Source: an uncultured Bacteroidales bacterium
Lineage (GTDB): Bacteria; Bacteroidota; Bacteroidia; Bacteroidales; F082
DNA: 64,000 nt
Assembly (NCBI GenBank): GCA_946185535.1
Contig: CAMHJX010000006.1
Location: forward strand, 1 to 64,000
Direction of reading: 5' to 3'
Shown piece by piece: positions 42,636 through 59,226 of the stretch. A program made the translations under genes and the position numbers. How positions within the stretch are numbered: position 1 is the stretch's first letter; the number at the start of each line of letters is the position of its first letter. The notes under the pieces were generated by a model. The model made no database searches. It was given only the letters and a program-made list of their open reading frames with translations, and had not been told where the DNA came from.

Positions 42636-43658
42636 ATGGCACAATGGCAAAAAATACAAATCCAGCGTGATAACGGCATGATGGCTGAGGCGCAAGCTCC
42701 GGTCATCATCTCTGCAAGCCGCAGCACGGACATTCCCGCTTTCTATGCCGACTGGTTCTTCCATCGGCTGAAGGTGGGCTACTCTGCTTGGACCAATCCC
42801 TTCAACGGTGTGAAGAGTTTCGTTTCGTATGAGAAATGCCGCTTCATCGTGTTTTGGTCGAAGAATCCAGAGCCGTTGCTCGAACATTTGGACAAACTGA
42901 AGGAAAGGAACATCGGCTGTTATATCCAATACACGCTGAACGATTACGAGAAAGAAGGCTTGGAAAAGGGCGTTCCACCCTTGGAGGAAAGGATTGACAC
43001 CTTCAAAAGATTGGTAGACCAATTAGGCCAAGGCCGTGTGATTTGGCGCTTTGACCCTCTGATTCTGACCGACCCAATCAGTATGGACGACCTTTTGAGA
43101 AAAGTGGAAAATATTGGCGACCAATTGAAAGGTTATACCGAAAAGATGGTGTTCAGTTATGCCGATATTGCGCTTTACAAGAAGGTGAAGGCCAATCTTG
43201 AAAAGAGCTACATCAATTATTCGGAATGGTTGCCGGAGCAGATGGTGGAGTTCGCCAAACGGTTGGTGGAGTTGAACAAGGTAAAAGATTGGAACTACGC
43301 TTTGGCCACCTGTGGTGAGGCGGCTCATCTCGACGGTGTGGAGCACAACCGTTGCGTGGATGATGACTTGATGATTCGCTTTGCCCAACATGACAAGGCT
43401 TTGATGGATTTTCTCGGCGTGGAGATTTCCGAAGGCGACCTTTTCGACCCCAAACCGACTATCATCAAGCACCGTGACAACCGCGACAAAGGCCAACGGC
43501 AGTTCTGCGGCTGCATGGTGAGCAAGGACATCGGCGAGTACAACACCTGTCCGCATTTGTGCGAGTATTGCTATGCGAATGCGAGCAAGGAAAAAGCGCA
43601 AGAAAACTATAACAAACACGAAATGAATCCTTTGGGAGAAACGATTACGGGGAAATAA
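42636..43658 (+). CDS. DUF1848 family protein (cysteine-rich, radical-SAM-like)
   Basis: Protein of 340 residues of the DUF1848 family. Marks: VIISASRSTDIPAFYADWF, YSAWTNPFNGVKSFVSY and FIVFWSKNPEPLL near the start, VIWRFDPLIL in the middle and a cysteine block near the C-terminus (CGCMVSKDIGEYNTCPHLCE, then YCYAN), which suggests an iron-sulfur cluster. The barrel-like arrangement has been compared with radical SAM enzymes; the substrate is unknown. Its last 115 bases are repeated at 44957-45071, on the far side of the DUF1016 nuclease gene. Confidence 0.88.
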   Translation: MAQWQKIQIQRDNGMMAEAQAPVIISASRSTDIPAFYADWFFHRLKVGYSAWTNPFNGVKSFVSYEKCRFIVFWSKNPEPLLEHLDKLKERNIGCYIQYTLNDYEKEGLEKGVPPLEERIDTFKRLVDQLGQGRVIWRFDPLILTDPISMDDLLRKVENIGDQLKGYTEKMVFSYADIALYKKVKANLEKSYINYSEWLPEQMVEFAKRLVELNKVKDWNYALATCGEAAHLDGVEHNRCVDDDLMIRFAQHDKALMDFLGVEISEGDLFDPKPTIIKHRDNRDKGQRQFCGCMVSKDIGEYNTCPHLCEYCYANASKEKAQENYNKHEMNPLGETITGK

Positions 43659-43688: not shown

Positions 43689-44894
43689 ATGAACCAACCA
43701 GCGACATACAACAAGGCAGTAGAGACCATCAAGACAGCCATTTTGCAAGGACAATACGAAGCAGCCAAAGGCGTGAACCGTATACAATTAGCGGTGTATT
43801 TCGCTATTGGCAAATACATCTCACTCAACACCCGTAAGGGCAAATGGGGTACAGGCGCATTGAAGACAATTAGCCAGCAACTTCGGAAAGAATTGCCTGG
43901 GTTGCGTGGTTTTGCCCCATCAAGCATGAAAAACATGCGACAATTTTATGAGGAATGGGAGATGCTGGATGCCAATTCGCCAATTGCAATTGGCGAATTA
44001 CAACAGACTAATAATCAGACGGATAATAAATCGCCAATTGTGATTGGCGATTTGGAAGGATCTAATTCGTCGGTTACGACCGACGAATTACAAGTAGTTG
44101 ATAACAAGATTGATATTTATCATTCGTTGTACATTCCCGATGCGATTGCCTTCCCTGCAGAAGATTTTTTCAAGGTGCCTTTTACCCATCACTCGCGCAT
44201 TTTGGCTGGTGCTAAAACATTGGAGGCTCGTTACTACTACATTCACCGCACGGCAGAAGAGAATTTATCGGTGGAGGCATTACAATCTCTACTCAAAGAG
44301 AATGCCTACGAGCAAAGAAATACAATGCCGAGCAACTTTACAAACACACTTCCTGATGCGAAACTTGCCCGCAAAGCGGTGATGATGTTCAAGGACGAGT
44401 ATTTGTTGGATTTCATCAATGTGGAGCAGATTGGCGAGCGCGAGTCCATTGATGTGGACGAACGCGAGGTGGAACAGCAGATTGTCCAAAATGTCAAGAA
44501 TTTCATCATGACTTTCGGAAACGACTTTGCTTTCATCGGCAACCAATACTATTTGGAGGTGTATGGTGTGGAGCATTTCCCCGACCTGTTGTTTTTCAAC
44601 CGCGAACTGAACGCCTTGGTGGTAGTGGAACTGAAGACGGGCGACTTCAAGTCATCTTACCTTGGACAATTGATGTCGTATCTTTCCATCTTGGATGCCA
44701 AAGTGAAGAAGTCGCACGAAAACCCGTCCATCGGCATAGTGTTGTGCAAATCGGCCAAGCGTGATTATGTGGAGTTTGTCATCCGTGACTACAACAAGCC
44801 GATGGGCGTAGCAACCTACAAAACCACAGCCGAAATGCCAGAGGAACTGCGGAAAGCCTTGCCGGATATTGAGGAATTGAAGAAATTGCTGTAA
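43689..44894 (+). CDS. DUF1016 / YhcG-type PD-(D/E)XK nuclease family protein
   Basis: Protein of 401 residues. The N-terminal DUF1016 domain (AVYFAIGKYISLNT, KTISQQLRKELPGLRGF, SSMKNMRQFYEEWEML) is a DNA-binding-like region; the C-terminal half is a PD-(D/E)XK nuclease (GNDFAFIGNQYYLEVYG, DLLFFNRELNALVVVELKTG, with the ELK core). The linker (residues 96-135) consists of three nine-residue repeats: NSPIAIGEL, KSPIVIGDL and NSSVTTDEL. Each is encoded by a 26-nt hairpin. YhcG-type genes are scattered and variable in Bacteroidota, often in accessory regions. Here it fills the gap between DUF1848 and a second copy of that gene's 3' end. Confidence 0.9.
   Translation: MNQPATYNKAVETIKTAILQGQYEAAKGVNRIQLAVYFAIGKYISLNTRKGKWGTGALKTISQQLRKELPGLRGFAPSSMKNMRQFYEEWEMLDANSPIAIGELQQTNNQTDNKSPIVIGDLEGSNSSVTTDELQVVDNKIDIYHSLYIPDAIAFPAEDFFKVPFTHHSRILAGAKTLEARYYYIHRTAEENLSVEALQSLLKENAYEQRNTMPSNFTNTLPDAKLARKAVMMFKDEYLLDFINVEQIGERESIDVDEREVEQQIVQNVKNFIMTFGNDFAFIGNQYYLEVYGVEHFPDLLFFNRELNALVVVELKTGDFKSSYLGQLMSYLSILDAKVKKSHENPSIGIVLCKSAKRDYVEFVIRDYNKPMGVATYKTTAEMPEELRKALPDIEELKKLL
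43974..43999 (+). repeat. In-frame 26-nt palindrome 1
   Basis: Perfect palindrome, arms aattcgccaattg / caattggcgaatt. Begins exactly at codon 96 of the DUF1016 nuclease gene. Confidence 0.9.
44028..44053 (+). repeat. In-frame 26-nt palindrome 2
   Basis: Arms aaatcgccaat / attggcgattt, loop tgtg. Begins at codon 114. Relative to palindrome 1, the third stem pair changes T-A to A-T with pairing kept. Confidence 0.9.
44064..44089 (+). repeat. In-frame 26-nt palindrome 3
   Basis: Arms aattcgtcggt / accgacgaatt, loop tacg. Begins at codon 126. Three stem pairs differ from palindrome 1 and all three are compensated. Confidence 0.9.
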
Positions 44895-44956: not shown

Positions 44957-45071
44957 CAACACCTGCCCGCATCTGTGCGAATATTGTTATGCGAATGCGA
45001 GCAAGGAAAAAGCGCAAGAGAACTATAATAAACACGAAATGAATCCTTTGGGAGAAACGATAACGGGAAAA
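44957..45071 (+). pseudogene. Fragment: 3' end of a DUF1848 gene
   Basis: 115 bases matching 43541-43655 in the same orientation with about eight mismatches, most of them synonymous (for example NTCPHLCEYCYAN is kept). The stop codon of the intact gene is absent: the frame reads on as ITGKNYGITI before stopping. It carries the C-terminal cysteine motif but no start. Confidence 0.9.
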
Positions 45072-50278: not shown

Positions 50279-50615
50279 ACAGATTCTTGACTATATTTTT
50301 CAATTCACACAACATATTTGAAACTTTCGGAAAACAATTTCCCTAACATTTTGCAAACTCCACTTTGCAAATTCTTCAGTTTTTTGTCGATTGCATTCGA
50401 CAATTCCTAAACATGACAACAACTCCACCGGATTGATTTGCAAGAAATCTTCCGCCTTTAGGCTTTTGCGTTCTTGAAACGCTATTTTACTCAATGGATT
50501 GAGTAAATGTACTCAGTAGATTGAGTAAATTTGCAAAACGAAAAACCACCAATTTTGAAAAGCGTGTGTTTATTAGTTGGAATAGTATAGAAAAGCGTAT
50601 ACATTAACTCGATTT
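50279..50615. other. Intergenic region with paired palindromes
   Basis: No convincing gene, although an open frame without an ATG exists on the minus strand (50300-50494). Two operator-like palindromes and a -7 box are present at 50486-50533 on the plus strand, but no plus-strand gene follows. Confidence 0.5.
50486..50533 (+). promoter_or_regulatory. Two palindromic operator-like sites with a -7 box, no downstream gene
   Basis: tttactcaa-tgga-ttgagtaaa (50486-50507) and tactca-gtaga-ttgagta (50510-50527), offset by 22 nt (about two helix turns). The second overlaps the -7 box TAAATTTG (50526-50533). This is the design of a promoter under an autorepressor, yet only a minus-strand kinase gene follows. 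Confidence 0.5.
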
Positions 50616-58263: not shown

Positions 58264-59226
58264 ATGGCAAAGAAAACGACAAAAGACAACGTACAAAAAC
58301 TGGTCGCAAATTGCGACCAGTTCGAAAAGGATGTCGCAAAATGCGATAAGCTTGAGAACACGGAATCAGTTATCACCCAAACCGAAATTGAAAAGCTTAT
58401 CATCACGATAAGAGGAGAGCAGGTCATTATTGATCAAGATGTTGCAAAGTTATATTGTGTAACAACTAAACGTTTAAATCAGCAGGCTAATCGTAATTCA
58501 GATAGGTTTCCAAGCAGTTTTCGTTTTGTTTTGACAGTAGAAGAACGGAATGAGGTAGTTGCAAATTGCAACCACCTTGCTTCACTGAAGTATCGACCTA
58601 CTCTGCCATATGCTTTCACCGAACAGGGAATAGGCCAATTGTCAACTGTTTTACATAGCAAGAAAGCCATTGAAACAAGCATCAAGATTATGAATGCCTT
58701 TGTTGCCATGCGACGGTTTATGATTCAGAATGCTGCCGTTTTGATGCGTATAGCCCATCTGGAAAGGCATCAAATCGAAACAGATGAAAAAATTGATTTG
58801 ATTCTTGACAAGATAGAAGAACATTCTCCAAAGTTGCTTCCTGAACAGGTTTTTGCGACTGGCTGTGTCTGGGACGCATGGACTTATATCTCCGACCTCG
58901 TTCGGAGCGCCCGTAAAAGGATTGTCTTGATTGACAACTATGTTGACGATCGGGTGCTCTCTATGTTCACAAAGAGAGCCGAAGGCGTTACAGCTACCAT
59001 CCACACGCGCTATAACGAACAATTCCTCACCGACCTGAAGAAACACAACGTCCAATATCCCGAAATTGAGTTTATCCAACTGTCGCACCGAAACCACGAC
59101 CGTTTTCTTATCATTGATGACAAGGTCTATCTGTTAGGTGCCAGCTTGAAGGACATGGGGGCGGGGCTTTGCGCGGTTACTGAAATGAGCATTGCGCCTG
59201 AGGTGATTTTGGGGATGGTGGGGTGA
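58264..59226 (+). CDS. ORF6N-domain protein with PLD-like C-terminal domain
   Basis: Protein of 320 residues. Residues about 40-155 form an ORF6N domain (phage-type DNA-binding): IRGEQVIIDQDVAKLYCVTTKRLNQQANRN, then PYAFTEQGIGQLSTVL. The C-terminal 140 residues resemble a phospholipase-D-like fold (RIVLIDNYVDDRVLSMF, and HDRFLIIDDKVYLLGASLKD). The protein contains three copies of a peptide with pattern V-A-N/K-C-D/N, each encoded by a palindrome (see repeats). Such genes often occur as single, moving accessory genes in Bacteroidota. It lies at the left edge of the McrBC island. Confidence 0.85.
   Translation: MAKKTTKDNVQKLVANCDQFEKDVAKCDKLENTESVITQTEIEKLIITIRGEQVIIDQDVAKLYCVTTKRLNQQANRNSDRFPSSFRFVLTVEERNEVVANCNHLASLKYRPTLPYAFTEQGIGQLSTVLHSKKAIETSIKIMNAFVAMRRFMIQNAAVLMRIAHLERHQIETDEKIDLILDKIEEHSPKLLPEQVFATGCVWDAWTYISDLVRSARKRIVLIDNYVDDRVLSMFTKRAEGVTATIHTRYNEQFLTDLKKHNVQYPEIEFIQLSHRNHDRFLIIDDKVYLLGASLKDMGAGLCAVTEMSIAPEVILGMVG
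58298..58322 (+). repeat. In-frame palindrome in the ORF6N gene, copy 1
   Basis: Perfect 25-nt inverted repeat, arms aactggtcgcaa / ttgcgaccagtt with a single central A; encodes LVANCDQ. Confidence 0.85.
58332..58348 (+). repeat. In-frame palindrome in the ORF6N gene, copy 2
   Basis: Shorter, one G-T pair: tgtcgca-aaa-tgcgata; encodes DVAKCDK, ten codons after copy 1. Confidence 0.6.
58554..58576 (+). repeat. In-frame palindrome in the ORF6N gene, copy 3
   Basis: gtagttgcaa-a-ttgcaaccac, one mismatch; encodes VVANCNH in the same codon phase as copies 1 and 2. Confidence 0.7.

Follow-up and report, generated by a model that had tools for sequence, protein, structure and literature searches.

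A gene of the DUF1016/YhcG nuclease family was analyzed in a 64,000-nucleotide stretch of DNA from an uncultured Bacteroidales bacterium (assembly GCA_946185535.1, contig CAMHJX010000006.1, positions 1 to 64,000 of the forward strand), referred to here as the window. The gene encodes a protein of 401 amino acids (aa) and contains three short palindromes in its coding sequence, which are the subject of this report. Both family domains were recognized above their curated Pfam cut-offs, DUF1016_N (PF17761) with 84.9 bits against 32.8 (7e-24) and YhcG_C (PF06250) with 156 bits against 32.5 (9e-46), and these two domains together with the PD-(D/E)XK residues place the gene in the family. In an alignment of 68 sequences, D299 and E314 were invariant and K316 almost so. 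The gene also matched the PADLOC profile PDC-S02, a candidate phage defence profile (1.1e-116); the PADLOC library holds known as well as candidate systems. The features are as follows.

43689..44894, + strand: DUF1016/YhcG-family nuclease gene, 401 aa (open reading frame, Pfam, PADLOC)
43917..43955, + strand: stretch encoding N-domain helix 77-89 (a section of GFAPSSMKNMRQFYEEW), which is the putative DNA-recognition helix (AlphaFold, covariation)
43920..43922, + strand: codon for residue 78, a Ser in this protein; the residue tracks base 7 of the half-site (covariation, tree)
43932..43934, + strand: codon for residue 82, an Asn in this protein; the residue tracks base 9 of the half-site (covariation, tree)
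43974..43999, + strand: palindrome 1, AATTCGCCAATTGCAATTGGCGAATT, perfect 26/26, starting at codon 96 and encoding NSPIAIGEL
44028..44053, + strand: palindrome 2, AAATCGCCAATTGTGATTGGCGATTT, stem of 11 bp and loop of 4 nucleotides (nt), starting at codon 114 and encoding KSPIVIGDL
44064..44089, + strand: palindrome 3, AATTCGTCGGTTACGACCGACGAATT, stem of 11 bp and loop of 4 nt, starting at codon 126 and encoding NSSVTTDEL
44385..44864, + strand: YhcG_C PD-(D/E)XK nuclease domain, aa 233-392, with D299, E314 and K316 (Pfam)

The three palindromes had been noted in an earlier sequence-only reading, and their positions at codons 96, 114 and 126 and their stems were found again. The arms (aattcgccaat, aaatcgccaat and aattcgtcggt) differ at four positions, each compensated on the other arm, exactly as that reading had claimed; the stem of palindrome 3 extends to 12 bp when 44063-44090 is counted, and base 7 of the half-site is C, C and T in palindromes 1, 2 and 3 respectively. 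Using arms of at least 10 nt and loops of at most 8 as the cut, five hairpins were detected in the window, three of them in the nuclease gene and the other two at 50486 and 58298; at the same cut, five simulated windows (first-order Markov) contained 0, 0, 1, 0 and 1. The palindromes sit between two matched parts of DUF1016_N, and in the AlphaFold model of the window protein aa 97-138 were disordered (predicted local distance difference test, pLDDT, below 50), in agreement with the proposal that they occupy a tolerant linker. The nuclease domain of the model weakly resembled the EndoMS/NucS fold by Foldseek (E 1.7e-3, with none below 0.001), and a sequence search of the Protein Data Bank with the family profile gave no match up to E 1.

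Palindromes at one position of the gene recur across the DUF1016/YhcG nuclease family and in several phyla. From a scan of 84,980 species genomes, the best 80 of at least 317 confirmed relatives were used, with rumen Bacteroidales, Prevotella, Bacteroides, Treponema and Clostridia among their hosts. A perfect hairpin with an arm of at least 10 was present in 64 of these best 80, and 86 of 87 hairpins started at residues 80-129, with synonymous shuffles producing 3.05 hairpins. Hairpin density was 0.957 per kb in the genes and 0.067 in the flanks, which include a few neighbouring DUF1016 genes. Clostridial genes carried a different palindrome in a different frame (IWNLQVPN).

In the pooled set of 194 DUF1016 open reading frames (ORFs), two were left out as not covering the site, and the remaining 192 formed 98 clusters at 70% identity; this set is dominated by Bacteroidales and is not a random sample. 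Perfect hairpins (arm at least 10) between -115 and +5 aa of the motif His were found in 134 of the 192 genes and 63 of the 98 clusters, and such hairpins numbered 186 in the site and 2 in other parts of the genes, with an expectation of 3.8 under synonymous shuffling. A quasi-palindrome score of at least 9 was reached at the site by 170 of the 192 genes, compared with 16.2 after synonymous shuffling and 3 in an equal downstream window, and 42 of 46 ORFs fetched later had a hairpin scoring at least 8. Ten distant genes, taken from E. coli K-12 and nine plasmid or phage records (13 of 39 such records were sampled in all, for taxonomic spread), came from two E. coli, Rhodococcus, Pseudomonas, Moraxella, Hymenobacter, Hydrogenophaga, Leptolyngbya, Abditibacteriota and Wolbachia phage WO. 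All ten had a palindrome or quasi-palindrome, which lay immediately 5' of a PWGH/FTHH-type motif except in E. coli, where it occupied the corresponding position. Taken singly, five of the ten did not exceed the best of their own 20 synonymous shuffles, and the case for recurrence therefore rests on the pooled counts. DUF1016/YhcG genes were found on chromosomes, plasmids and phages.

The matched changes had been read earlier as a sign of selection on RNA or DNA structure, with pairing kept while the protein changes. In a 26-mer, position i pairs with position 27-i, and in phase 0 third codon positions face third codon positions, which allows silent covariation to be counted; 102 distinct phase-0 hairpins were used, 5 of 139 hairpins having been excluded as chance. 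Of the third-third pairs, 9-18 was Watson-Crick in 100 of 102 hairpins against a mean of 73.0 and a maximum of 83 when permuted within the same amino-acid pair, and 6-21 in 98 of 102 against a mean of 84.2 and a maximum of 94. Among the Ser/Thr cases (n = 36), pair 9-18 was C-G in 13, G-C in 11, A-T in 10 and mismatched in 2. No covariation was observed at loop pair 12-15 in these hairpins (64 against 60.8 permuted). Palindromes driven by the encoded peptide were ruled out by the synonymous shuffles and by this silent covariation, and relatives kept their pairing rather than presenting unpaired codons, so that the claim of a constraint on the nucleic acid is borne out. Arm mismatches over 3188 cells comprised 12 G-T, 50 A-C and 27 others, and over the 555 doubly silent (third-third) cells 2, 3 and 5. 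As G-T was rarer than A-C, the constraint looks to act on DNA and not on an mRNA hairpin; the DNA half of the earlier alternative was retained, and the RNA half, for want of any G-T excess over A-C, was rejected on the mismatch types. A further claim, that the elements keep a single codon phase, was not upheld, since the 139 26-mers in the 80 homologs were distributed as 121 in phase 0, 17 in phase 2 and 1 in phase 1, and one gene (locus L156) contains the same palindrome twice in two reading frames.

The site appears to belong to its gene rather than to be a general target. In the draft genome of the window (93% complete, 86 contigs), the main site pattern with at most 3 mismatches was present twice, only at palindromes 1 and 2. 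Four DUF1016 genes were found in this genome with four different palindromes, for which residue 78/base 7 were, by eye, S/C (two of three sites), R/G, T/T and T/T. In E. coli, the K-12 hairpin was present in 3376 of 5426 genomes (3377 places). Among genus relatives the arms differ and the changes are matched on both sides. Of 34 genus matches with at least 9 of 10 pairs, 31 were in DUF1016 genes or a shortened allele of the gene (among the 30 loci listed), and the exceptions outside DUF1016 were L038, L055 and L057. The literal AATTC...GAATT strict pattern was found in 32 of 173 family genomes, all of the window's genus; of 395 genomes sampled across the phylum, the 1 that had it was the window's own. 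A general inserting element, which had been offered as one origin of the palindromes, was rejected, as matches concentrate in DUF1016 genes and, in this draft genome, the main site is confined to the gene. Two exact patterns searched as phage target sites in viral_contigs gave 0 matches and 1, the latter in the contig of the gene itself, and six peptide patterns found no viral homologs of E. coli YhcG.

The commonest half-site was approximately AATTnGnCA. The stricter form TTnGnC, which 3% of random 13-mers contain, was present in 109 of the 261 arms and in 41 of the 98 clusters. The candidate reading helix is GFSxxNLxxM of the N-domain, and an apparent code was first seen by listing half-sites beside this helix; genes without a TTnnnCn half-site were excluded from the covariation analysis. 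When base 7 was scanned by mutual information against 343 alignment columns (61 clusters below 70% identity), residue 78 ranked first with z 11.4, followed by residue 102 with 6.5, which is encoded by the hairpin itself. For base 9, residue 82 ranked first with z 7.8, the next column reaching 4.0. In 34 clusters below 55% identity, residues 78 (10.1) and 82 (5.2) were again first for bases 7 and 9, and when base 7 was compared with residues 55-95, residue 78 had z 10.7 and all others tested had 2.6 or less. Residue 81 tracked bases 5 and 6 (z 7.8 and 7.0). R/K78 was paired with G7 in 20 of 22 clusters (p 3e-10); counted per half-site, R/K78-G7 held in 102 of 113 and N78-A7 in 12 of 14, with weaker agreement for T78-T7 (105/161) and S78-C7 (34/58).

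A tree of 124 genes was built from the nuclease domain alone, and a coincidence was defined as a change on the same branch in the same direction. Gains or losses of R/K78 coincided with a change of G7 in 13 of 17 cases (1.8 expected), changes of K/R82 with C/G at base 9 in 14 of 19 (2.16 expected), and changes of N78 with A7 in 4 of 4 (0.11 expected); the next-best columns for G7 gave 9 coincidences (residue 102) and then 6. Arg-G and Asn-A are classical contacts, and residues 78 and 82 lie about one helical turn apart. Taken as sequence evidence, these associations suggest that bases of the palindrome track two residues of the putative DNA-reading helix, hinting at recognition by the protein of its own gene.

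The recurrent position, the silent DNA covariation, the covariation of protein and base, and the absence of the main site elsewhere in the draft genome are comparative results. At the core of the reading that we favor, the palindromes are predicted, with high confidence, to be double-stranded DNA binding sites for the gene's own protein. A dimer of the DUF1016 protein would read two inverted half-sites through the helix GFSxxNLxxM; base 7 is assigned to residue 78, base 9 to residue 82 and, possibly, bases 5 and 6 to residue 81. Helix and site would be inherited, swapped and horizontally transferred jointly, as they lie within about 200 bp of one gene, and the pair would for the same reason tend to stay matched. 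The likeliest role of the site is that of an intragenic operator, at which bound protein would limit its own expression by roadblocking or repression. Binding, dimerization and autoregulation are what we infer here, and whether autoregulation, as the self-limitation of a potentially harmful nuclease, is the main role is a question on which we are evenly divided. In its general form, the proposal is that a class of DNA-reading proteins has its target encoded in the same gene, adjacent to the stretch that specifies the reading helix, that specificity and target are thereby inherited and exchanged as a single unit, and that this arrangement is near-universal in DUF1016/YhcG with a readable code (strong for R/K-G and N-A at residue 78; tendencies for T-T and S-C there and for K/R-C, E/D-G and N/Y-A at residue 82). 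We lean towards this general form with less assurance than towards self-binding.

A number of observations weigh against this reading. The AlphaFold model was weak overall (mean pLDDT 66), and its N-domain had no recognized structural match by Foldseek. Half-sites were identified by regular expression, which could place the register in 125 of the 192 genes. On the tree, R81 and T5 were weakly associated (4 of 16 changes coincided where 1.1 would be expected, and 1 ran in the opposite direction), base 5 tracked residue 87 better than residue 81 (9.9 against 7.8), and N5 and N11 associated with many columns, which points to family history. G7 occurred without R/K78 in 12 of 45 genes, and base 7 can differ between copies in one gene (C, C and T in the window; C and G in E. 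coli K-12), and specificity is therefore less than strict. The helix recombines together with its site as one block, which by itself raises the number of coincident changes on the nuclease-domain tree, and kinship among the counted hairpins and genes means that the permutation odds are overstated. The self-binding reading gives no account of the excess of A-C over G-T mismatches. On the promoter side, a gene's own heptamer was barely enriched in the 200 nt upstream (6 against 2 downstream, 118 genes), which makes no case for a second operator there. A test set beforehand on new genes drew on 40 new regions and on 4 plasmid records added outside the fixed plan, and covered 51 ORFs (5 of them a separate set from E. 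coli); after removal of 27 that were at least 70% identical to genes already used, 3 without a hairpin and 12 that were unreadable, 9 were used. Seven of these nine fitted the residue 78/base 7 rule (p 0.17); leaving out the one plasmid gene gives 6 of 8, and a second rule, B, was uninformative for this set. On the supporting side, over all 24 new readable genes R/K78 occurred with G7 in 11 of 11 and other residues without G7 in 10 of 13 (p 1.5e-4). These counts were made post hoc, and some of the genes share as much as 94% identity with those already used; a looser register, also post hoc, gave 18 of 18 and 14 of 17.

Intragenic operators such as lac O2 in lacZ and the internal operator of galE are known, as is roadblocking by a bound protein. 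The palindromes resemble these in being palindromic, putatively repressor-type sites within coding sequence that are constrained as DNA; they differ in that the site would lie in the gene of the DNA-binding protein itself, a nuclease, at one position across phyla, and its bases covary with the helix. I-TevI is an autorepressing homing endonuclease with its operator at the promoter and its target in an interrupted or neighbouring gene. The likeness here is of a nuclease possibly regulating its own gene through a site there, whereas the present site lies within the ORF and travels together with the helix. Homing targets are interrupted by the element, and the palindromes stand uninterrupted within the nuclease ORF. 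Repetitive extragenic palindromic (REP) elements and bacterial interspersed mosaic elements (BIME), associated with REP-associated tyrosine transposases (RAYT), are high-copy and extragenic; the sites described here are intragenic, with the main pattern at two places in one gene. No mention of palindromes in these genes was found in the portions seen of literature searched under the names DUF1016, YhcG, COG4804 and PDC-S02, including PMC1189080 and PMC4316617, and an earlier description elsewhere is possible; the same partial sources yielded no function for DUF1016/YhcG genes.

The main functional rival to an operator is self-directed cleavage or recombination, which shares the self-binding core. 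Sister or newly arriving copies of the gene would be cut or nicked by the nuclease at its own site, driving gene conversion and the spread of the helix and site as a cassette, in a homing-like or exclusion role. We regard this as possible but the less probable of the two roles. It is in keeping with a PD-(D/E)XK nuclease with a weak EndoMS/NucS match and with the Holliday-junction-resolvase-like prediction made for the family in PMC1189080. The E. coli alleles can also be read in this way. The K-12 and IR53017 alleles were about 87-100% identical except at nt ~221-400, which contain helix and hairpins; the unit that differs between these two alleles is the helix plus its sites, which also counts in favor of the self-binding core itself. 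Broken alleles had their breaks at or between hairpins, that of DL21 being joined at hairpin 2, that of O111 having lost about 80 bp after hairpin 1, and that of Oki being joined at a hairpin. In DL21 (L290, 2229-3030) and in L294, yhcG is cut at a hairpin and followed by a small ORF annotated as 'transposase'; this DL21-type sequence was matched in 722 of 5426 E. coli genomes, 714 of them over at least 80%. A shortened allele in six genus genomes (L067-L072), which retains the first codons, three palindromes and the last codons without the helix or the nuclease, adds a further case in which gene ends and palindromes are kept; it might be a titrator of the protein, or a relic. Set against self-cleavage, the nuclease would cut the very gene that encodes it as well and no protection was seen, palindromes are fragile by themselves and their breaks need no dedicated nuclease, and no precise mobile boundaries were found among similar gene pairs, in which homology often ended near the ORF at varying places. 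A general domain-shuffling hotspot at the hairpin is not claimed, as identities of the N- and C-domains correlated at 0.92 and 15 of 132 close pairs looked mosaic.

Two further explanations are each improbable. In the first, the hairpins would act in the transcript through ribosome pausing, RNase processing or translational autoregulation, for which an 11-bp stem with a free 4-nt loop, its pair 12-15 not covarying, is well suited. A structured mRNA would be expected to covary with tolerated G-U pairs, yet wobble pairs hardly occurred, G-T making up 2 even of the 555 doubly silent cells, and links of bases 7 and 9 to two helix residues are not expected of a pause element. In the second, there is no structural selection; the arms, lying in a tolerant linker, would be repaired by template switching at quasi-palindromes, and the covariation would be mutational. 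Template switching is known to homogenize the arms of inverted repeats (PMC8604942 and PMC8794818). Lengthened palindromes were observed in keeping with this, with 46 bp perfect in L067 against a 26-bp core in five sister copies, its left flank being the complement of its right, and 38 bp in L136 against 28 bp in L132 and L133. The process does not account for the single place in one family (3 of 192 equal downstream windows at score 9) or for the association with residues 78 and 82, and it is likely a contributor rather than the cause: it probably helps to keep the arms perfect and leaves their place and the covariation with the helix unexplained.

The idea of a mobile palindromic element of the Rickettsia type inserting in frame can be all but set aside, since, although copy number varies and a single copy lies in a 631-aa gene (G025) and a 42-bp palindrome between genes (G014), the well-paired genus matches fall almost wholly in DUF1016 genes or the shortened allele, the main site is confined to its own gene in the window genome, and the arm sequence follows the helix of the host gene. 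Rickettsia palindromic elements likewise lie in frame in protein-coding genes, and are scattered in many copies over unrelated ones; here there is one family, one place and arms specific to the gene.

The self-binding reading would, if true, allow the DNA targets of very many uncharacterised nucleases to be read from sequence, and binding could be tested at once, E. coli K-12 yhcG included. It would also provide a natural library of matched helix-site pairs for learning the protein-DNA code, and an instance of coding DNA that is conserved because the protein it specifies recognizes it, the peptide adapting to this.

Proteins with an ORF6N domain may be a second class carrying their own target. 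The hairpin at 58298 is an in-frame palindrome, AACTGGTCGCAAATTGCGACCAGTT, in an ORF6N-domain gene of the window (58264-59226), and a relative (L359) has two palindromes with the common core GGTCGCAAATTGCGACC in two frames. Among ORF6N-type ORFs recognized by motif in 30 loci, 4 of 13 had a perfect arm of at least 9, with 6 hairpins against 0.5 in shuffled sequence, one pair of these being near-identical and one hairpin plain A+T.

Palindromes of the DUF1016 type were also observed in other settings. A single one lies in frame in the 631-aa gene, which is of another kind (L193/L075, 2553-2578); it was not found in 14 other homologs fetched, two of which have a different palindrome with 9-bp arms nearby. 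The 42-bp palindrome (L076, 2496-2537) is perfect, has a DUF1016-type core and stands between longer ORFs. DUF1016 genes adjoin or sit within type I restriction-modification genes in three annotated plasmids (L253, L339 and L340), as judged by annotation, and likewise in L081, as judged by eye from translations. Finally, about 115 bp at the end of the DUF1848 gene that lies upstream (43541-43655) are repeated at 93% identity downstream of the DUF1016 gene (44957-45071). Ahead of this copy stands MMIEQNTNYDYKLKYK, a shortened beginning of the gene found next after DUF1016 in the relative L073.

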